Shown piece by piece: positions 3,429-32,298 of a DNA stretch of 33,011 nucleotides; the first letter of the stretch is position 1; the number at the start of each line of letters is the position of its first letter. A program made the translations under genes and the position numbers. Below the pieces are notes generated by a model. That model was given only the letters and a program-made list of their open reading frames with translations. It was not told the DNA's origin and made no database searches. The stretch spans positions 1 through 33,011 of IMG/VR virus record IMGVR_UViG_3300031673_000287. One strand, given 5' to 3'. The stretch comes from a virus.

Positions 3429-4064
3429 ATGAAAAAGTTAATGTTACTATTACTGTTGGCTTCGGTTTTATGTGGGTGTGATTATTGCGATGTTGACCAG
3501 GGGGAGACTTATAAAAAGTGGCCTAATGGAAAAATAGCGTTCCATATCAGTAAGGATTTTAGTACAACCGACATAGAAAATATTTATGAGGCTATGGATG
3601 CCTGGGAGGCCAGTACTGATATTGAGTTTGTAGAGATGGATGTCACCGGAGATTATATCTGCTATATCCAATTAAAAAATGAATCCTGTGCAAAAATAGG
3701 GCATAATAAAAATAGCTTTGTGTATTTACAGGAAAATCTTAGTCTATACGCAGCAATGCACGAACTCGGTCATGTAATTTGTCTACCGGACGAAGTTAGG
3801 AGAAAAGATCGCAACAGTAACATAACGATACAATGGGACAATATCAAAGAAGGTGAGGAACATAATTTTTATATCGATTACAAAATTCCTTCCTGGTATT
3901 ATGACTTTGAATATGATCTACGTAGTATTATGCACTACAATTCTTTTACTTTTCTAAAAGACAGAGGTTTTGTTTTTACAGTAAATGATGATCCCGATAT
4001 GTGGATATTCAACCCAGAGATAACAACTAAAGATATTGAGAAAGTTAATGCTATTTATGAATAA
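3429..4064 (+). CDS. Astacin-like lipoprotein metalloprotease, leader copy D
   Basis: A 211-residue protein. Residues 1-17 are a lipoprotein signal peptide (Cys17 after L-C-G). The mature part begins DYCDVDQGETYKKWPNG, then a zincin fold with the start WPNGKIAFHI, the zinc motif HELGH at 111-115, the RRKDRN stretch, and a Met-turn SIMHY at 166-170, the order of the astacin family (M12A). The canonical HExxHxxGxxH reads HELGHVICLPD here: Gly is Cys118 and the third zinc ligand position is Asp121. An Asp third ligand is known in other metzincins (snapalysin), so activity is possible. Secreted and membrane-anchored, it is likely a cargo gene acting on host or environmental protein. It overlaps the tail-fibre gene on the other strand by 10 bases. 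Confidence 0.8.
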   Translation: MKKLMLLLLLASVLCGCDYCDVDQGETYKKWPNGKIAFHISKDFSTTDIENIYEAMDAWEASTDIEFVEMDVTGDYICYIQLKNESCAKIGHNKNSFVYLQENLSLYAAMHELGHVICLPDEVRRKDRNSNITIQWDNIKEGEEHNFYIDYKIPSWYYDFEYDLRSIMHYNSFTFLKDRGFVFTVNDDPDMWIFNPEITTKDIEKVNAIYE

Positions 4065-5566: not shown

Positions 5567-7084
5567 TTATACAATTTCAACCTGCGCCACACACCAATTG
5601 CGCAGGTGTTTCATTTCGACAACCAACTGAAATAAGTAATCAAACTCATAATATGGCATTTCGATCAACTCTCCGGGATCAGCGAGCCTATCCGGAAATG
5701 GTGACAGGAAAAAGAAATAATTCCAGAATTTTCTATTGTCAAGATTATCAGATGTAATTATAATTCCAGCAGCTCCAACTACACAAAATATATTTCCGTT
5801 GTATATTACATCATATAGTGCACTAGGAATACCAGTCAGGGAAGGAAACCAGGTTACGCCGTCAGGCGAGGTCAATATCGTTCCAGAATTTCCAACGGTA
5901 CAAAATATAGTTCCGTTCCAGGTTATGCTTTGCAGGACATTTCCAGTTCCGGACGTCTGAGGTGTCCAGGTTACGCCGTCAGGCGAGGTCAATATCATTC
6001 CAGAATTTCCAACAGTGCAAAATATAGTTCCGTTCCAGGTTATGCTTTGCAGGACATTTCCAGTTCCAGAAGTCTGAGGTGTCCAGGTTACGCCGTCAGG
6101 CGAGGTCAATATCGTTCCAGCATCCCCAACAACACAAAATATAGTTCCATTCCAGATTATGCCTAAAATAACATTTCCAGTTCCGGACGTCTGAGGTGTC
6201 CATGTTACGCCGTCAGGCGAGGTAAATATCGTTCCAACATTCCCAACGGTACAAAATATAGTTCCGTTCCAGGTTATGCTTTGCAGGATATTTCCAGTTC
6301 CGGACGTCTGAGGTGTCCAGGTTACGCCGTCAGGCGAGGTCAATATCGTTCCAGAATTTCCAACAGTGCAAAATATAGTTCCATTCCAGGTTATTTCCCG
6401 CAAGTCATTTCCAGTTCCGGACGTCTGAGGTGTCCATGTTACGCCGTCAGGCGAGGTCAATATCGTTCCAAAATTTCCAACAGTGCAAAATATAGTTCCG
6501 TTCCAGGTTATGCCTCTTAAAATATTAGCAGTTCCGCTTGTACGATTGTCCCAGGTAGGTTCTTTAATCTCATATTCAACCGGCCGGGGATACAAAAATA
6601 ATGGATTTGGAGTCCTGTATTGATGCGTCCCATACTGAGCCTGTCCCCACTGCGCAACAATCTCTCCATATCCGCGCGGAGGCGAGCAAACAATAAGTTC
6701 CCCCGGCACGGTCCCGGGGTCAATATCTTTTGCTAAATTCTCATGGACATACAGCAGATACCCGGCTTTTTGCAACTGCTCTTCAATCCAGTCTGGACCG
6801 CCGAACCCACGTAGATTCGCTTTCTCTATTATTCTGTCAATCCTTAGCGCATCCGAACCAGGTAAATATTTTGGGATCCCATATTTCACGTTATAATCAT
6901 CAATCGAGTAAGGATCCATTCCTTTATAAGGCACAATATTATTTTTTACAGAATTCTTAAAATTTATAATCCTCTCATATTCCGCAGCCAAACCTCCATA
7001 AAAATCTTTGAGCTGCTCAAAACCTGGGAGAATTATAGGAATTCCCAGCCTGGTAAGTGTTTTTTTTATAGATTCTATTAACAT
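5567..7084 (-). CDS. Mu gp48-like baseplate protein with inserted seven-blade beta-propeller
   Basis: A 505-residue protein; gp48/YmfQ-type (DUF2313) proteins are usually about 200. Residues 1-170 match the gp48 class by order and content (ALRIDRIIEKANLRGFGGPD), and residues about 470-505 (FDYLFQLVVEMKHLRNWCVA) match its C-terminal end. Between them, residues 188-455 hold seven repeats of 39 residues with the core ITWNGTIFCTVGN-GTILTSPDGVTW; the seventh is diverged and shorter. Four strands per repeat and a closing strand before blade 1 (residues 176-187) fit a seven-blade propeller of the BNR/Ycf48 type. It starts one base after the baseplate J stop without its own clear ribosome site, so coupling is likely. 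Propellers bind glycans or proteins; a receptor-binding role is inference. Confidence 0.8.
   Translation of the reverse strand: MLIESIKKTLTRLGIPIILPGFEQLKDFYGGLAAEYERIINFKNSVKNNIVPYKGMDPYSIDDYNVKYGIPKYLPGSDALRIDRIIEKANLRGFGGPDWIEEQLQKAGYLLYVHENLAKDIDPGTVPGELIVCSPPRGYGEIVAQWGQAQYGTHQYRTPNPLFLYPRPVEYEIKEPTWDNRTSGTANILRGITWNGTIFCTVGNFGTILTSPDGVTWTPQTSGTGNDLREITWNGTIFCTVGNSGTILTSPDGVTWTPQTSGTGNILQSITWNGTIFCTVGNVGTIFTSPDGVTWTPQTSGTGNVILGIIWNGTIFCVVGDAGTILTSPDGVTWTPQTSGTGNVLQSITWNGTIFCTVGNSGMILTSPDGVTWTPQTSGTGNVLQSITWNGTIFCTVGNSGTILTSPDGVTWFPSLTGIPSALYDVIYNGNIFCVVGAAGIIITSDNLDNRKFWNYFFFLSPFPDRLADPGELIEMPYYEFDYLFQLVVEMKHLRNWCVAQVEIV
5720..6523 (-). repeat. 117-bp tandem repeat encoding propeller blades
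   Basis: Six near-identical 117-base units and a seventh diverged one. A stretch such as cgccgtcaggcgaggt recurs every 117 bases on the plus strand. Differences cluster in the codons just after TVGN and at the start of each blade. The near identity at DNA level points to recent amplification or gene conversion. Confidence 0.9.
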
Positions 7085-7085
7085 T

Positions 7086-8225
7086 TTATGCTATGTCCAC
7101 ATAAGTTATATTTCTTGCCTTGCCATGTTGACCGCCCCAAAATACATATCGCTCGCGTACTATACTTGTCGATACCTCAGTTATTGTCACATCGATAATT
7201 ATAGCGCCTCCCTGCTCCGCTACCGTGCTGGCTGCCGACGCAAGATTAGTTTTTGTTAAAGTATTCCTTTGAAAATTTGACACTCCTTCGATGTATGGCT
7301 GCAATGCTAAAATAAAGTCTTCCATCGCGGTTGATATTGCGTCTTTCAGGTCCGGACCAGCATTTTGTATTTCAACTTCAATATCAAATTCTGCTATTGA
7401 AATTGGCAATGTTTCTAGCACGTCACCGATAGGCCTTCTGTATGCCTTCCCGGCAGCTGTGTCAATTTCAAGATAGGTTTTTAATTCTATAAGCTGTCCG
7501 GAAGTTGGAATTCCATCCGGCTGGTTGTCAACCAGCCCATATACATTAACTTTTCCTGCCTGGTTTTCGTCTGCGTATGGCCCAATCCATACAAAATTAG
7601 GCGCTTCCAGTCCCCACAGATTATAATCTCCAGGGCTCCCGCCGGTTGCACGGCGCCGGAACCTGGATATAACGCGTTCCCGGAAAATCTCTCTATCTTC
7701 AGAATCGTCACCACTCTGTAAAGTGCTGGTAACCGTAGCCGTACCGTCAAGCGCAAGATCGGTTTGTGAAATATTTAGAACCTCGCCATCCGCAAGGTTC
7801 CCTATCTCTCCGCCGGTAAGAGCAAGCATTTCCACATCTGCTGCCACGCCTAGCACTATTGGAACTGTATATTGCACCCTGTAAGTTATGCTATTTGTGC
7901 CTATGAAAAGAGTCCCCTGCGTCACCTGCGCCCCTGGACCAGGTACATCACACACTATTATTGCGGATACTTCCGGGATAGGGGTTATCCCTGCAATTTC
8001 ACCCCATAAAATTAAACTTTCCCAATCAGCTGTTTGAGTAAAAATCTGTCTGTAAACCCATGCGATGGATTGATATAGCATATAGTCCACGCCTGAGTTT
8101 GCGCCTGATATTACTTTTATTAATGCAAGCAATAAACTAGGAACAGTCTGATTTATTTTACTTTCAACATCTGAAACTATTCTATTTTTTATTTCCTGAA
8201 TTGATGGTATAACAGGTAGCGCCAT
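7086..8225 (-). CDS. Baseplate J-like protein (Mu gp47)
   Basis: A 379-residue protein of the usual length for the baseplate J family (wedge component). It has the N-terminal helical start IPSIQEIKNRIVSDVES, the stretch VPGPGAQVTQGTLFIG, and the conserved RRRATGGSPGDYNLWG block near residue 200, which is diagnostic. It lies in the Mu order gp45-gp46-gp47-gp48. Its ATG overlaps the last base of the gp46 stop. It joins the baseplate wedge around the hub. Confidence 0.9.
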   Translation of the reverse strand: MALPVIPSIQEIKNRIVSDVESKINQTVPSLLLALIKVISGANSGVDYMLYQSIAWVYRQIFTQTADWESLILWGEIAGITPIPEVSAIIVCDVPGPGAQVTQGTLFIGTNSITYRVQYTVPIVLGVAADVEMLALTGGEIGNLADGEVLNISQTDLALDGTATVTSTLQSGDDSEDREIFRERVISRFRRRATGGSPGDYNLWGLEAPNFVWIGPYADENQAGKVNVYGLVDNQPDGIPTSGQLIELKTYLEIDTAAGKAYRRPIGDVLETLPISIAEFDIEVEIQNAGPDLKDAISTAMEDFILALQPYIEGVSNFQRNTLTKTNLASAASTVAEQGGAIIIDVTITEVSTSIVRERYVFWGGQHGKARNITYVDIA

Positions 8226-8656
8226 TATTCACCTCCTGAAACTGAGACAACGCCTTTGTCCCAGTTTATTTCATATTTTGTTTGGCCGGTAGTCGGCCTA
8301 TAAATTTCTATTCCCCAGCCTATCGCATACGCATTTATTATCAAACCTGTCACAGATATTGACTTTGCAATTTTTTCTTCAATCATAAAATTCATTGCGT
8401 TTTTCAATGCTTGTATTCCGTCATTTTTTGTTTTCTCTGAAACTGTTGCGCGTGCAATAATTTCAGGAAAGTCTGATATATATTTTTCATTTTTATTCTG
8501 AGTTATAAGATTCTGCCAGGTTGTTTTATCTCCGAATACCGCAAGCAAAACCATCGTCTCAAATCCATCTGTCATATCAGGCTGGCCGTTTTGAAAATTT
8601 ATATCAAAATCACCATCTGAGTTTTTCGCTATCAATATGTCTCCGGTATAAATCAT
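8225..8656 (-). CDS. Mu gp46-like baseplate protein
   Basis: A 143-residue protein starting MIYTGDILIAKNSDGDFDI and carrying the phage GP46 pattern (FETMVLLAVFGDKTTWQN near 35-50 and a GWGIEIYRP element near 115). Length, order (between gpV and baseplate J) and start/stop overlap with both neighbours support the call. Gp46 is a baseplate wedge component, of the same fold group as T4 gp25. Confidence 0.85.
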   Translation of the reverse strand: MIYTGDILIAKNSDGDFDINFQNGQPDMTDGFETMVLLAVFGDKTTWQNLITQNKNEKYISDFPEIIARATVSEKTKNDGIQALKNAMNFMIEEKIAKSISVTGLIINAYAIGWGIEIYRPTTGQTKYEINWDKGVVSVSGGE

Positions 8657-22201: not shown

Positions 22202-25090
22202 TTATTTCCTAACGCTATAATATATATTTCTGATCAGTATAGCTACCGAATCCGTTGCATTCCATACCACAACATTTACTTCACAGTTAGTGAAAAAATC
22301 CGCGATTCCATTCGGAAACACATCTATCGAGTTACCTGCCGTTATATTAGCTCTTCCTATCGCCCCACATAATTCTCCAAGCTGGTAAGAATTTGTACCT
22401 GTTCCATTGTCTGTGAAATTTATAGCTGCTCCTCCTAACGTATAAGAAACTTGAAATGTATCTGTTTGTTTATTTACAACATAATAAACAACATCTTTTC
22501 TTAATCCTGTTGAAAGTGTACCAGCAGAATTTTTAAATGTAATTATATCTCCGTTTACTCTTGGTGTTGCTGTTTCATTTATTACATCAGTTATATTATT
22601 AAATGTTACTATTCTTTGTGTTGGTTTAGTCCCGAAAAATTGTGCGCGTAAGTTTTTTGCTGCTGTTTGGGGATCCATATTCACATTAGATGATAATTTT
22701 AGCGTAACATTTTCTGTTCCGATATATTTTCCAGTTCCATTTATATTCAATTCCGTTCTCGAAACTTTATCCGCTATAAAATTTATTCCTGTTGTTACCA
22801 AAATTTTAGCGTTTACGGCAGGAATATTTACAAAAGTAGTTGTATTGCCCTCTGATCTTGCTTCAAGTACTACTGTGCTATCCGCAATTGGATCGTTTCC
22901 TGAAAATTGCAGTCTTGGATGTTCCTCATCAGCAGAACCAGATGCAAGAAAAGAACCATCCCCTCTCATTTTCCCAACATGTATAGTTCCAATACCTTCA
23001 AGGTTATCTGCAACACTGGGAGCAATATATAACATACTTTCATTGCTTTCAAGTTTGCTTCTAAGTTTTAAAATTTCAATTACATCGGTACTGCTTCCTG
23101 TTATTCTATACATGCCTCCGCCAACTTCATTTCTGCCATCCTCGAAAGTTGTTACTCCTATTGTTACACTTGTTATATTGTTTAATTCTAACGGTTGCCC
23201 TGTCCCAAGAACAAGAAAATTTGTCTCTACATTAAACCGACTTCCTGTACCGCCAATAATTTTTCCCAATCTTGCACAACTTCCAACCACAAGATTTTGT
23301 ATTGATAAAGTACCATCCACAAAAAAATCATCTGAAAACAATCCACCGTAAGGTACATTTATAAAACTACTACCAATAAACCCAAGAAACTTACCGACTG
23401 CCACACCCCCATTCCAAAATTCATCTTTTCCTAGGTACGTAACACTTTTCCCAGCAACTGTGCTGAACCCAACATTACCAGTGCTTGAATTATATGCTTT
23501 TTCGCCAGGCAATAACACTATATTTTCATGTATTTCATATTGTATATCGGCAGGAAATTCTACTGCCGGACCAGAATTTACAACCAGGCCTAAATCAGAT
23601 TGATCTGATCCAGGAAGACTCCCTGCTGTAACAACCGCCACAACAGTATTGCCGCTCCCATCGTCAAGCGTAAATTCTCCACCGGCGCCCACCGCAACTG
23701 GAGTACCGCCATCCCAAGATAGAGTTTGTCCAGAGAAAGCATAAACAAGATCATACGTTCCTGCTGCTCCAGTTTGATCTTTCAGGTATACACCTGTTAT
23801 ATTCGTAGGATATTCAAGATAATATCCATGTGGTAATTGATCCTTACTTGTTACCTCAATTACGTTAGGTGTTCCAGGATTTGGTTTTATCAAATCCCCA
23901 TATTCATCGGCTATTAAAATAATTGCATCACCATTTGAGACAGCATCTGTTAGATTTGTTTCACCTTTCTTAATTACGAATGCAGCATCAACACAAGCTC
24001 CCTCAATAGAAGTTGGAATGATAATATCATTTCCTCCAGCAGCTCTTATGGCATCATTCCGTGATTTATATTCTCCATATCCATAAATCAAAAATCTTGT
24101 CATTCTTTTCGATATTGTCTCATAATCATAAGATGCAAAATCAATCCCATACATTATTATGTAATTTCCATCTGTCGCAGTATTCAATAATCCATCAGCA
24201 CACGCATATTTGTCAGTAGGAATTTGGGTTGTGGCTCCATCAAGCGAAGCTACGCCTGTTAATGCGCTTGTAGCTGGTAGAAAAGTATAACCAACAGCTT
24301 GATCTACAGTCGGAAAATTTATCCTTTCTCTTGTTTCTCCAGCTCCGATTCTGTTGATTTCTCCGGCGAGCTGTTTCAAACTTAAATCTGTTCCGCCCGG
24401 TTCTACCTCAAGCCCTGATTTCTTTATTGAACCTCTTGTTATAACATTGCTAATTTCATCGAGATTCTGACTGTGAAAAATAGGAAATACAAATACTCCT
24501 GTTATTGTGTCTGTGTTGAATGTTACTATATTCAAGTCTGTTTGATCTGATCCTGGAAGTTCGCTTACTCTCACATCAACCTGAATAGAACTTCCAGTAT
24601 CGCCCGTCTCACTCCATAAAGTGAAAGATCCTCCAGCACCCACAGCAACCGCATCACCATTTTCCCAAGATAATGTTTGGCCAGCGAAAGTATAATATAG
24701 ATCGTAGCTTGTAGCCGTCCCGGTAGGAGAATATAATCTTGTGCCAGTTATGTTGAAAGTAGGGCGATAACTTACGAATGCAAACAAAGACACCCTAATG
24801 CTTCCACATGTTCCATCAAGCTCATCTCGTGACAAGTTTAGTTCACGTTGTGTTATTGTACCATTCTGCTCAAAAACCAGCCATTTTCCAGCAACAGTTC
24901 CTATATCCGTTATTTGAATAGTCCGCGGAGCATACTCTACAATTTTTCTCGCCTCTGTTTCCTGATCGACAAAAACAACTTTCACATAACCAGTATCAAG
25001 CTTAGAGGAATCACCTACATTCTTCTTGAATGCTGCCGCATCAATTTCTATTATTCCAGTTGACAAATATTTATCTAACTTGTTACTCAT
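22202..25090 (-). CDS. Large fibre-like virion protein (962 residues) with duplicated module
   Basis: The start at 25090 (MSNKLDKYLSTGIIEIDAAA) has gaagaggtt just upstream. Two copies of a roughly 75-residue module, at residues about 122-199 and 439-513 counted from an alternative start nine codons earlier, share NITG, the core GQTLSW, VAVGAGG and LPGSDQ. The remainder is beta-rich with Asn/Gly/Thr turns (residues 520-900), typical of fibre or spike shafts. No hydrolase motif is clear. Its place between portal and protease points to a head or neck appendage. Confidence 0.55.
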   Translation of the reverse strand: MSNKLDKYLSTGIIEIDAAAFKKNVGDSSKLDTGYVKVVFVDQETEARKIVEYAPRTIQITDIGTVAGKWLVFEQNGTITQRELNLSRDELDGTCGSIRVSLFAFVSYRPTFNITGTRLYSPTGTATSYDLYYTFAGQTLSWENGDAVAVGAGGSFTLWSETGDTGSSIQVDVRVSELPGSDQTDLNIVTFNTDTITGVFVFPIFHSQNLDEISNVITRGSIKKSGLEVEPGGTDLSLKQLAGEINRIGAGETRERINFPTVDQAVGYTFLPATSALTGVASLDGATTQIPTDKYACADGLLNTATDGNYIIMYGIDFASYDYETISKRMTRFLIYGYGEYKSRNDAIRAAGGNDIIIPTSIEGACVDAAFVIKKGETNLTDAVSNGDAIILIADEYGDLIKPNPGTPNVIEVTSKDQLPHGYYLEYPTNITGVYLKDQTGAAGTYDLVYAFSGQTLSWDGGTPVAVGAGGEFTLDDGSGNTVVAVVTAGSLPGSDQSDLGLVVNSGPAVEFPADIQYEIHENIVLLPGEKAYNSSTGNVGFSTVAGKSVTYLGKDEFWNGGVAVGKFLGFIGSSFINVPYGGLFSDDFFVDGTLSIQNLVVGSCARLGKIIGGTGSRFNVETNFLVLGTGQPLELNNITSVTIGVTTFEDGRNEVGGGMYRITGSSTDVIEILKLRSKLESNESMLYIAPSVADNLEGIGTIHVGKMRGDGSFLASGSADEEHPRLQFSGNDPIADSTVVLEARSEGNTTTFVNIPAVNAKILVTTGINFIADKVSRTELNINGTGKYIGTENVTLKLSSNVNMDPQTAAKNLRAQFFGTKPTQRIVTFNNITDVINETATPRVNGDIITFKNSAGTLSTGLRKDVVYYVVNKQTDTFQVSYTLGGAAINFTDNGTGTNSYQLGELCGAIGRANITAGNSIDVFPNGIADFFTNCEVNVVVWNATDSVAILIRNIYYSVRK

Positions 25091-25091
25091 C

Positions 25092-26216
25092 TTATAACCT
25101 CTTCCATGAATTTGCACTTATAGCTTGATACCATACAGTTGCCCCATCACTATTTATTACATCACTTGTTTTGTCTATATCAGCTTTTATTATATCACTA
25201 CCAGATGCGTTATTTGTTATAGCATATGTCCCTGAATTATGTTCTGTATCCGACACGCCAATAACCCGGCCTATTCCATTAGTTGCATCCCAAAAATTTG
25301 TTGCTAATGGCATTATAATTGACACAGCGGCAGTAGTCACATCAACGCTTATCAAATAAATATCCGCAGCTGGAGAATAAGGACTGTCTGTATGATCTAT
25401 ATTTGTTACTTTTTTTGCAATACTCCCATTTACAGAAAGTGTGCTGTTTGGAGTTGCTGTGTTAATCCCAACATTCCCATTATTTTTAGGATTTAAAAAT
25501 ATCGTTTCATCTATTCCACTTGCTCTAAATATTGTAGAATTATATACTCCTCCTAGATATTGTTGTATTTCAACAGATTCATTCGCGTCCCGCCCATCAT
25601 GTACAATATCATAACCGGAATTGTTTGATTGGCGTAGGGATACTCGCCCACTTTCTTCATTCGTTCCATCAGACTGAATTTTTATTGTTGGAGCAGAAGA
25701 AGAATATATATGCAATTTCTCGATTGGCGCAACTGTTCCAATTCCAACATTGTTATTTCCCGTCAAAGTCAGTGCTGGTACTATATTTAGTGTATTGTTG
25801 TTAGTTGTGTGAAATCTAAAATCAACATCCAAATCCCCAGGCAGATAAGTTTGAATCTGCCCTTTCAATGATGCGTTATGCTTAAAATCAAGAAATATTT
25901 TCTGCCCGGGCGCTATAGTGGCTATACGTTCAATAGTGAAAGTTGTTCCACCTGTGCCATATATTCTTGCGTCACCATTTACGTCAAGTTTTGCGGTAGG
26001 AGTGACAGTGCCAATTCCAACATCACCGCCATCCAGAATCTTAATGCCAAGATTCCCGGTAGCAGATAAAATATTATTAGTAAAAACATCCGCGCCGGAT
26101 ATGTCAACATTTCTTACAGTATTTATTTTTTTAATATCTGTTCCGTCATCAAACCAGATCAGTTGTTGAATCGGGCCGCCTGCGCCTGAGCCTCTATTTC
26201 CTATCGTGTCAATCAT
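25092..26216 (-). CDS. Trimeric fibre-like protein
   Basis: A 374-residue protein with three copies of the fibre motif V-G-I-G/N-T-x-x-P-x-x-x-L (VGIGTVTPTAKLDVNG, VGIGTVAPIEKLHI, VGINTATPNSTLSVNG) separated by beta-rich segments, and a C-terminal knob-like domain (GVSDTEHNSGTYAITNN, ISANSWKRL). Start overlaps the previous stop (ATGA); the stop is one base from the next ATG. Likely a virion fibre; attachment point unknown. Confidence 0.6.
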   Translation of the reverse strand: MIDTIGNRGSGAGGPIQQLIWFDDGTDIKKINTVRNVDISGADVFTNNILSATGNLGIKILDGGDVGIGTVTPTAKLDVNGDARIYGTGGTTFTIERIATIAPGQKIFLDFKHNASLKGQIQTYLPGDLDVDFRFHTTNNNTLNIVPALTLTGNNNVGIGTVAPIEKLHIYSSSAPTIKIQSDGTNEESGRVSLRQSNNSGYDIVHDGRDANESVEIQQYLGGVYNSTIFRASGIDETIFLNPKNNGNVGINTATPNSTLSVNGSIAKKVTNIDHTDSPYSPAADIYLISVDVTTAAVSIIMPLATNFWDATNGIGRVIGVSDTEHNSGTYAITNNASGSDIIKADIDKTSDVINSDGATVWYQAISANSWKRL

Positions 26217-29654: not shown

Positions 29655-31670
29655 CTAAGCAGCAACATCATAAAGCACGGACTCCATAGCGTCCATGAAC
29701 AAATCAATGTCCTGCTGTATTTCCTTTAATTTTTGATCCTTACGCTTTTTATTCTCTATCTCAAAAAATCTGTCAAGCGCAAATTGATATGCTCCAAAAT
29801 TATATTTCACAATATCTAAAACTTCATTCCTACGCTGTTTCCGATTCTCAATCGATACGCTCTTAACTCCCTTCCGATTTGTTTCAACAAAAACCTCTTC
29901 ATTCGTGAGTTGCTTATAAAATTCTTTTCCAAAACTTTTCGGAAAGTGAATAAATCCGAATGGATAACCCCCGGACCTATGCGGCTTTTTTCTAAGCGTA
30001 TTATAGACAGCTTTCTTCAATCTTTGATCGTCCAGCCCAATCACGGGAGTCCCGATTTCATTCTTAAACATCTTTGTAATAGTCGCAAGACTTTCGCGCG
30101 CGATAACTGGATACACTCCGTTAATAGTACCCGGGCTATAATTAAAATTATTATCACAAAACGCATTCACCTGATCCTTATGATACTGCGAATCCACGAA
30201 TGCAATAGATACATATATCTGCGAACCATCAGCACGCGAATAGGTATTTGTTATTTTTTCAGCAAGCCTTTTCCAGCAGTCGCTTTCAACTTCCCTTGTA
30301 TCTCCCTCAAAATTCCAGTAATCAATCACCCACGCCTGACGCTCGCGGCCCCATCCCACTATTCCTGCCTCAATCCTGTCCCCCTGAATATCAGCAGCCA
30401 GGGTCAAAAATAATATCTGATTGCTGATATATCCTGTTTCCCAGTCTTCAGCGTATCTCATTAGTTCGTGCGCTTCGGGAGCGTCCGCGCGTTCGGCAAA
30501 GGTTTCCGCCAGGGTATCATTTACAAAATCCGGGTATAATATCATATCATCCTTGACGCGCTTAAATTGTATTGCAATGTCAAGCCATGATTTGAATCCA
30601 ACCGGGGAATATAATCCGTTCAAGTGGTAGCTGCGAATTCCTGGCCTATCTGGTTTCTTTGTCGGAACCCACTCACCGCGAATTAAAAACCATTCCTTAT
30701 CTTCATTTTTAATTTTGTGTTTGCACTGAATACACTCATAATATACCGGATCATTCGTTATAGTTTCTACACCGTCTATTATTGTTATTCCTATGTCAAG
30801 TTTTCCATCTTCATCTTTATTTCCAAATTTCAACTGTGAAAAAACAAGCGGCTGCATGTGTTTACATTTCGGACACGGAACGTAAAAATATCTTTTGTCT
30901 CCCTGTTCAAAAAGTGGCTCGATTTGTGATGTATGTTTTAATTTCGGTGTGCTTAAATATAATATTTTTTTATTAGGTCCGTAGGATTCCGAACGCCTTA
31001 GCATTTTCTCTATGGGATTACCGGAAGCCTTACCCTTTCCTGGCGCCTGCATGAGCTGCGGATATACGTCAATCTCATCAAGCAATAAAACCCTTTGATT
31101 AAATGATCTTGCTTTCGCTTCAGAGTTCGGGCCAATCGCGCGGATGAAAGTCCCGCCATAACTTTTTACTGCCTTCGTGTCACCGGTAGTTTTTTGATGT
31201 TTTTTTTGAACTACTGCTTTTATTTTGTCGGCCAAACCGGAAGAGTGGATCATCTGGTCAACGCGTTTTTCCATAGACTCTTCAGCCATTGCCTGGTCGC
31301 CAGAGACAAATAGTACCGGGCCGATTCCGTACTTGATGCAATACCCGATTTCATTTTCCAGAATTCCAACAGTGGCGCCGATCTGCGTCGGTTTCATAAA
31401 TACGACTTCCATAATTGGCGAGCTGTCCGAAAGACAATCTGCAATCTCTCGAAGGTAAGGAGTTCGGTCAAAACTATATGGTCCAGGATACGCTGCAACA
31501 CCGGCAGACAATACCCTGGATGACTCCGCGAATTGAGAAACTGTTTCAGTTATGTTTGCCTCCGGTATTCCAGATATTAGAGCATCAAACCATTCCGACA
31601 TTTCTGAATTGACTTCATCCGTGAGAACTAGATCAGGGAGATTTTGGATGGTTGGTTTTTTTTTAGTCAT
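29655..31670 (-). CDS. Terminase large subunit (GpA family)
   Basis: A 671-residue protein. ATPase: adenine/Walker A-like region KPTQIGATVG (93-102), Walker B LLLDEIDVYP (195-204), and motif III LYLSTPK. Two CxxC pairs (CPKC 266-269, CIQC 313-316) make a zinc knuckle. Nuclease: AADIQGD (D427) and FVDSQ (D493) supply acidic residues. It packages DNA into the procapsid. Its ATG overlaps the preceding stop by 8 bases (ATGACTAA), so translation of the two is coupled. Confidence 0.9.
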   Translation of the reverse strand: MTKKKPTIQNLPDLVLTDEVNSEMSEWFDALISGIPEANITETVSQFAESSRVLSAGVAAYPGPYSFDRTPYLREIADCLSDSSPIMEVVFMKPTQIGATVGILENEIGYCIKYGIGPVLFVSGDQAMAEESMEKRVDQMIHSSGLADKIKAVVQKKHQKTTGDTKAVKSYGGTFIRAIGPNSEAKARSFNQRVLLLDEIDVYPQLMQAPGKGKASGNPIEKMLRRSESYGPNKKILYLSTPKLKHTSQIEPLFEQGDKRYFYVPCPKCKHMQPLVFSQLKFGNKDEDGKLDIGITIIDGVETITNDPVYYECIQCKHKIKNEDKEWFLIRGEWVPTKKPDRPGIRSYHLNGLYSPVGFKSWLDIAIQFKRVKDDMILYPDFVNDTLAETFAERADAPEAHELMRYAEDWETGYISNQILFLTLAADIQGDRIEAGIVGWGRERQAWVIDYWNFEGDTREVESDCWKRLAEKITNTYSRADGSQIYVSIAFVDSQYHKDQVNAFCDNNFNYSPGTINGVYPVIARESLATITKMFKNEIGTPVIGLDDQRLKKAVYNTLRKKPHRSGGYPFGFIHFPKSFGKEFYKQLTNEEVFVETNRKGVKSVSIENRKQRRNEVLDIVKYNFGAYQFALDRFFEIENKKRKDQKLKEIQQDIDLFMDAMESVLYDVAA

Positions 31671-32298
31671 TATAAATCACTTTATAATTATCATCAATCG
31701 GAAGAGTCGGCCCCACGGAAGTAGTTTTATAAAATACGACTTCTTTTATTTTAGAAATTTCACATAGACCGTCTACAATCTCGCGAAGGTATGGAGTCCG
31801 TTCAAAAATATATGGACCAGAATATTGAGTTTTTAAAATTCTAATTTCCTTTATTTTATTTTCATATGCATCGAGATATTTTATCATATCACATAAAAGC
31901 GGAGTTCCTTTGTATTCTGAATTTTTTACAGATTCCATTTTAATATTTTTAATTTCATCACTTAAAAATTTATCATATAAATCATCAAATCCAATAGTTC
32001 CATTTTTATAATTTTCAAAAAATTCATTACCTTTTTTTATAGAGGTTTCAACATCAAGTCCTAAGCATAACAAATGCTTATAAACATTAAACACGTCTTT
32101 TAGTATTAAATTATTAAACATAGAAATACAATAAATTTCAACATACATCTGTTTTATTACATTCAACAAATTCACAGCTTTTTCTTCATCCTGAATAATT
32201 ACTTTTAATTCTTTAAAAATTTCATATAATTCACTGTTTGATTTATCTGAATAAAATTTATTAATTCTCCATTTTCCTAAAAACTTTTTCAACTTCAT
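31663..32298 (-). CDS. Protein with C-terminal TerL-fragment domain
   Basis: A 211-residue K/N-rich protein. Residues 1-150 are helical with no known match. Residues 152-200 copy TerL 52-102: GPYIFERTPYLREIVDGL matches GPYSFDRTPYLREIADCL, and EVVFYKTTSVGPT matches EVVFMKPTQIGAT, 25 of 40 identical by eye. It stops 11 residues after the Walker A position, so it can bind at most part of a nucleotide. Ribosome site ggagg. Could be a relic or a regulator/decoy. Confidence 0.65.
   Translation of the reverse strand: MKLKKFLGKWRINKFYSDKSNSELYEIFKELKVIIQDEEKAVNLLNVIKQMYVEIYCISMFNNLILKDVFNVYKHLLCLGLDVETSIKKGNEFFENYKNGTIGFDDLYDKFLSDEIKNIKMESVKNSEYKGTPLLCDMIKYLDAYENKIKEIRILKTQYSGPYIFERTPYLREIVDGLCEISKIKEVVFYKTTSVGPTLPIDDNYKVIYND

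Follow-up and report, generated by a model that had tools for sequence, protein, structure and literature searches.

A seven-bladed propeller predicted within a gp48-like baseplate wedge protein of a contractile-tailed phage

Host recognition is usually ascribed to the fibres or spikes of a phage, and the core wedge proteins of the baseplate are treated as fixed machinery. The locus described here raises the question whether an open reading frame in the wedge region, with a seven-fold repeat between its two ends, is a gp48 into which a propeller has been inserted, and what such a propeller might do at that place. The window, i.e. the whole stretch of DNA that was analysed, is a virus record of 33,011 bases in a single metagenomic contig, and belongs to a contractile-tailed phage, a virus of bacteria.

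Gene order and assignment to gp48

The minus strand carries, in order, the tape measure gene, a gp43-like gene (DNA_circ_N), a gp44-like hub gene, a gene in the gp45 position, a gp46-like and a gp47-like gene, an ORF of 505 amino acids and a fibre-like gene, which is the order of gp43 to gp49 in phage Mu. The genes closest to the ORF are:

8225–8656, minus strand: gp46-like wedge protein or sheath initiator (BW1), phrog_180 with E 5e-7
7086–8225, minus strand: gp47-like wedge protein (Baseplate_J, BW2), PF04865 with E 2.4e-27, and phrog_6
5567–7084, minus strand: gp48-like baseplate wedge protein (BW3 class) with a predicted inserted propeller, 505 aa (P0001), directly after gp47, phrog_4920, orthologue L020
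4055–5548, minus strand: tail fibre-like protein (P0002), the N-terminal ~80–100 residues conserved in insert-free relatives

The ORF starts with ATG, has no internal stop codon and lies directly downstream of the gene for gp47 (Baseplate_J), with the fibre gene adjoining at its other end, so that the order gp47, ORF, fibre is that expected for gp48. It is assigned as a distant Mu-type gp48 (BW3/Tri2 class) of a contractile-tailed phage of the Mu/SppYZU01 type, on the grounds of gene position, a match of its N-terminal part to phrog_4920 (E 7.4e-6) and a series of intermediate relatives. Direct searches of Pfam and NCBIfam gave no gp48 assignment for the ORF; the Mu gp48 family, PF10076, was not matched in a direct hmmscan against Pfam at E ≤ 1, nor was it matched by the relatives L020 and L111 at E ≤ 0.05, and a sequence search of the PDB returned a chance match only. 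Other relatives, e.g. L028 and P0004, match PF10076 below its cut-off. The miss is taken as a detection limit of the model, and gp48 membership is for that reason stated as distant and through intermediates.

In all of the ten phages with a related gp47 that were examined, a protein of 239–276 residues is encoded right after gp47; these proteins belong to phrog_4920 or phrog_203, "baseplate wedge subunit", and the best match among them to the Mu gp48 family PF10076 has E 8e-8. A profile of gp48 relatives (A2) matches the solved Mu gp48 chain (9ki1) with E 1.4e-7, and the N-terminus of the ORF aligns to this profile with an hhalign probability of 91 and E 9e-7. Scans based on alignments recovered relatives where those with a single protein (P0003, or the N-terminus of the ORF) found none. 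The phrog_4920 wedge proteins of Shewanella (SppYZU01_25), Vibrio, Aeromonas and Acinetobacter phages share with the ORF the gene position, the domain and short loop repeats (CGE etc.), but have 239–276 residues and no propeller.

Empty site and insertion point

A scan of IMG/VR with a gp47 alignment gave the close relatives L020–L028, in which the next gene after gp47 encodes a gp48 of 224–282 residues without repeats, the exception being L021, which is cut off. Compared with these, the ORF is divided as follows:

6566–7084, minus strand: N-terminal part of gp48, residues 1–173 (helices, start of the alpha/beta domain, variable loop), matching residues 1–175 of L020 with 51% identity and E 1e-55
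6611–6676, minus strand: variable loop with short Q-x-G repeats (YGEIVAQWGQAQYGTHQY), seen in alignments with relatives, within the loop containing the Mu fibre-docking loop
5732–6565, minus strand: inserted segment, residues 174–451, missing in L020 and in the other orthologues without an insert
5738–6556, minus strand: seven-unit propeller repeats, residues 177–449, with units of 39 residues, predicted by AlphaFold2 and by Foldseek matches to Ycf48
5570–5731, minus strand: C-terminal part of gp48, residues 452–505 (FWNYFFFLSPFPDRLA...VAQVEIV), matching residues 180–232 of L020

Residues 452–504 show 55% identity to residues 180–232 of L020 (E 4e-17), and between the two matched ends L020 has four residues (GSDP) and the ORF 278. 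By this comparison L020, the nearest orthologue found, represents an empty site, and further insert-free orthologues are L022–L028 (L021 being cut off) and L111. An earlier note on this DNA had claimed that both ends of the gp48 class are kept, which the two matches bear out; it had also considered that homologues might reveal the repeats as a separate gene joined by error, and this is not supported, since both ends of the ORF match the insert-free L020. Close relatives were needed for the C-terminal part because the distant gp48 set (A2) alone gave no significant homology there; with a C-terminal profile of the close relatives the ORF reaches 88.5 bits, the best of 20,000 shuffles reaching 11.2. 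The G+C content is 0.446 in the insert and 0.42 and 0.40 in the flanks, which gives no compositional sign of recent transfer, and no second copy of the phage or member of the same species was found with one exact 26-base probe.

The wedge of Mu consists of one gp46, two gp47 and one peripheral gp48 (BW3), and residues 133–155 of the latter form the loop to which the N-terminus of the fibre docks (PMC11915804). When the ORF is aligned to Mu gp48 by profiles, the insertion columns fall within those of residues 133–155, indicating that the propeller is inserted in the inter-strand loop that joins the two halves of the alpha/beta domain of gp48, a loop whose Mu counterpart holds the fibre-docking loop. 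The full-length AlphaFold2 model, made from nine sequences, is poor (pLDDT 46) and the propeller was not recovered in it. A trimmed model, the range of which we read as residues 94–131 plus 452–503, has its two best VIA matches in phiCD508 9gb2_M (Z 4.5) and in residues 97–176 of Mu gp48 (9ki1_b; Z 4.2, 57 residues, rmsd 2.6), and as these values are below 8 and the model is of low confidence, the likeness of the flanks to the Mu gp48 fold is support and not proof.

Mu gp48 (BW3; PDB 9ki1, PMC11915804) has in common with the ORF that it follows gp47, that the fibre gene comes next and that the N-termini are homologous via intermediates. It has only 180 residues with a docking loop of 23, whereas the inter-strand loop is longer here and has the 278-residue propeller insert in addition. 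Mu gp48 is placed at the baseplate periphery with one copy in each of the six wedges. The Q-x-G repeats of the loop are still present just ahead of the propeller. Short Gly-containing repeats (CGE, QFG, QDG, QYG) are found in the counterpart loop of gp48 relatives, and similar short repeats occur at the C-terminus of gp48 in L020, L022, L027 and L065.

Blades, fold and distribution of the propeller

The repeats are seven units of exactly 39 residues as assembled in the single contig, with an anchor-to-anchor spacing of 39 found six times, in agreement with the 7 x 39 arrangement given in the earlier note, and Tandem Repeats Finder reports 117 bp in 5.7 copies with a score of 1071, far beyond chance. 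That the DNA repeats are nearly identical, as was also claimed there, applies to units 1–6, with 77–96% identity among themselves, but not to unit 7, which is 53–58% identical to them. Blades 1–6 find their best matches in one another (79–97% of residues), the best match among 671 blades of other phages being 67%, so that they arose by amplification within the lineage. The propeller thus appears to have been built by recent amplification of one blade, a process known from Asp-box and other propellers (PMC9218822), and recombination could plausibly alter the number of blades. In 14 of the 15 blade pairs dN is lower than dS. Core changes aside, differences between blades are concentrated at unit positions 12, 14–15 and 28–29. 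By the model these should fall ahead of or within strand one and in the loop linking strands two and three, and by the up-down topology on one face.

Since the full-length model failed in the propeller, the insert was folded alone by AlphaFold2 from an alignment of 44 propeller sequences, 43 of them from other phages. The model has a pLDDT of 97.2, a pTM of 0.93 and 28 strands, four in each of seven blades; the first strand (residues 178–181) completes the last blade, closure being read from the strand order. A closed seven-bladed propeller is well supported by this prediction, and the proposal of a propeller with seven blades set within a baseplate protein of the gp48 class, which a ring that failed to close would have spoken against, is upheld. 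At both of its ends the insert exits from the last blade, at the place of that blade's outer hairpin, and such a domain should for this reason be easy to insert in a loop.

The top Foldseek matches in the PDB are Ycf48 proteins (E 1.5e-12, TM 0.80), and the viral matches include the baseplate wedge initiator of cyanophage S-SSM7; VIA gave Z above 30 over nearly all residues against several seven-bladed proteins. By sequence the ORF matches PF19755 (DUF6242) with 39.3 bits, the cut-off being 29, and a profile of 45 phage propellers (A9) finds Ycf48 with E 5e-6, and no match to PF02012 or PF14870 was found in the ORF. The canonical Asp-box (SxDxGxTW; PMC9218822) is not present in the blades, which have SPDGVTW instead, one residue shorter. 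The propellers of Ycf48 (PSII_BNR) and DUF6242 thus share the seven blades with the insert, the former being the best Foldseek matches and the latter above cut-off, but the identity to Ycf48 is 17–20%, and the insert differs by its near-alike blades 1–6, by the SPDGVTW motif and by being carried by a baseplate protein.

A recognisable gp48 was found in 81 of 85 related loci, with lengths clustering at 250–275 residues and no internal domain of such size. Propellers or lectin-like domains have, on the other hand, been acquired repeatedly and independently by gp48 in different layouts. In L158 (2102–3502) one ORF of 466 aa directly after gp47 encodes a Mu-type gp48 with a C-terminal propeller, with both PF10076 (50 bits, cut-off 37.4) and PSII_BNR (28.9, cut-off 27) above their cut-offs. 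In L103 (6158–7695, a Shimia MAG) an ORF for a propeller extends into the initial residues of gp48 and is followed by a frame break at about 7060–7072 and then by the rest of gp48, which we read as a broken or misread N-terminal fusion. Two other loci carry what by sequence are lectin-like additions: gp48 is followed by two C-terminal LamG-like domains in L083 (6176–8437), and LamG and BACON domains are N-terminal to it in L089 (1447–4383). The fibre-position ORF next to the propeller-bearing gp48 of L158 (3385–4581) likewise has a propeller, and in L050 and L088 a propeller is present in a fibre gene located between gp47 and gp48.

The internal propeller is by this survey new among the sampled gp48s, with propellers of phage fibres and baseplates being already known, and the open-access literature yielded no paper describing a propeller in gp48 or in a wedge protein. 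The statement of the earlier note that no gp48 with such an insert had been described holds for the literature searched and for the ~80 sampled gp48 loci, but has to be narrowed, as the terminal fusions of L158 and L103 exist and baseplate propellers are known.

Propellers of this class are common on viral contigs, with at least 435 confirmed loci among 600 stretches listed, and judged from the protein ends the matches listed are mostly fibre-like or tail proteins. In L008 (5203–8445) a propeller of the same class is inserted near the N-terminal third of a tail tip (gpJ-like) protein. The class also occurs in a wedge protein of cyanophages, the gp7 wedge initiator (S-SSM7, S-CAM9, DSL-LC03), which differs by being very large, e.g. 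3001 aa in S-SSM7 according to the record coordinates, and by having the propeller near the C-terminus. We take the T4-type gp7 to correspond to gp48 within the wedge heterotrimer, (gp6)2-gp7 being equivalent to (gp47)2-gp48.

Possible roles of the propeller

The propeller of gp48 is probably an accessory receptor- or glycan-binding module that works alongside the fibre, a reading to which we assign a probability of roughly 0.6. Up to six propellers per baseplate would be displayed at the rim beside the fibre roots, where they could bind a component of the host surface, either a glycan or an envelope protein. Binding would provide an extra adhesion point, perhaps as a second step after that of the fibre, and this point would be tied mechanically to the movement of the wedge that sets off contraction, in which it may take part. 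In tblastn, P0002 matched all of L111, L118, L026, L024, L027, L020 and L023 at residues 1 to ~100, and as this fibre anchor is conserved in insert-free relatives, the propeller should add to the fibre and not replace it.

Propellers at the baseplate periphery are found in phi11 gp45, for which receptor binding is established, and in PhiKZ gp131C, for which it is proposed (PMC4901313), but these are separate receptor-binding or fibre proteins and not part of the core wedge, and that of phi11 has five blades. A putative baseplate wedge protein of Pseudomonas phage K8, GP075 (DUF2612), which adjoins fibre genes, takes on the role of a further receptor-binding protein through point mutations or internal duplications of 7 aa (PMC9887876); unlike the gp48 of the window it has no propeller. 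In the latter a wedge protein with a counterpart of the Mu fibre-docking loop has taken up a whole propeller there and kept its conserved ends. If such propellers bind hosts, annotation pipelines that look at fibres only overlook one type of receptor-binding element, and the link between adhesion and contraction would be directly testable, since the domain is joined to the wedge. With its near-identical blades, the insert is also a propeller of recent origin, at a site whose empty state is defined, and useful for studying how propellers form. A wider and more doubtful idea is that gp48/BW3 is a general display platform in contractile phages, where propellers or lectin-like domains, either inserted in it or fused to it, would form a second host sensor wired directly into the wedge, whose binding of a ligand would help to license contraction.

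The main rival of a host-binding module is a fibre-docking adaptor or structural clamp, by which the propeller would enlarge the docking loop and hold the fibre base or a neighbouring wedge without itself binding a host ligand. The insertion within the loop that contains the docking loop of Mu would suit such a role, and propellers are general platforms for protein-protein contacts, but we regard it as unlikely: the N-terminal anchor of the fibre is conserved in relatives without a propeller, indicating that docking can do without the latter, the loop has kept its short Q-x-G repeats beside the propeller, and among the matches listed the class is mostly found in fibre-like proteins.

Considerably less probable is a selfish or neutral insertion, i.e. 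a mobile cassette that is tolerated with no adaptive role, which would fit the abundance of the class (at least 435 confirmed loci on viral contigs) and the rarity of the insertion, with no other internal one in ~80 gp48s. Against it stand the exactly seven in-frame blades that are predicted to close, the excess of dS over dN in nearly all blade pairs, and the fact that gp48 has gained propellers and lectin-like domains repeatedly and independently. As no other sampled gp48 has an internal propeller, selection for a function is argued only from the intact frame, the whole number of blades and dN < dS.

We consider it very unlikely that the propeller is enzymatic and cleaves glycans, as in sialidases with Asp-boxes. 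The ORF weakly matches the NCBIfam entry F510_1955 family glycosylhydrolase (E 6e-6, well short of the cut-off) and some phage propellers are endosialidases (PMC4901313), but blades so nearly alike offer no distinct catalytic set, and the Ycf48 proteins, its closest neighbours in structure, are non-enzymatic. Misassembly of a repetitive region, joining the repeats or the adjoining fibre gene into gp48, would accord with a single metagenomic contig and with the 26-base probe that found no second copy, but is hardly credible given the frame open across both junctions, the whole number of blades in a ring that closes, the homology of both ends to the single insert-free orthologue L020 and the like G+C content of insert and flanks.

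Some further features of the window were observed apart from the wedge genes. On the minus strand, positions 22202–26216 hold a 971-aa ORF and a fibre-like ORF of 374 aa among the head genes, between a portal-like ORF and a ClpP-like protease ORF, which is an unusual location for fibre-like proteins. The C-terminal part of the ORF at 31663–32298 (minus strand) is similar to the beginning of the large terminase at 29655–31670 (YSGPYIFERTPYLREIVDGL against YPGPYSFDRTPYLREIADCL), as if it were a duplicated fragment of the terminase. On the opposite strand, adjoining the fibre gene, a small lipoprotein-like ORF (LLLLASVLCGC; 3429–4064, plus strand) has the zinc-protease motif HELGH, and the ORF at 1034–1717, also on the plus strand, consists of about 16 six-residue repeats (VGGYLR/VGGDLS, in 18-bp units), with the repeats at 1190–1471. 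The contig end contains a 15-bp tandem repeat in 20.5 copies (3–310).
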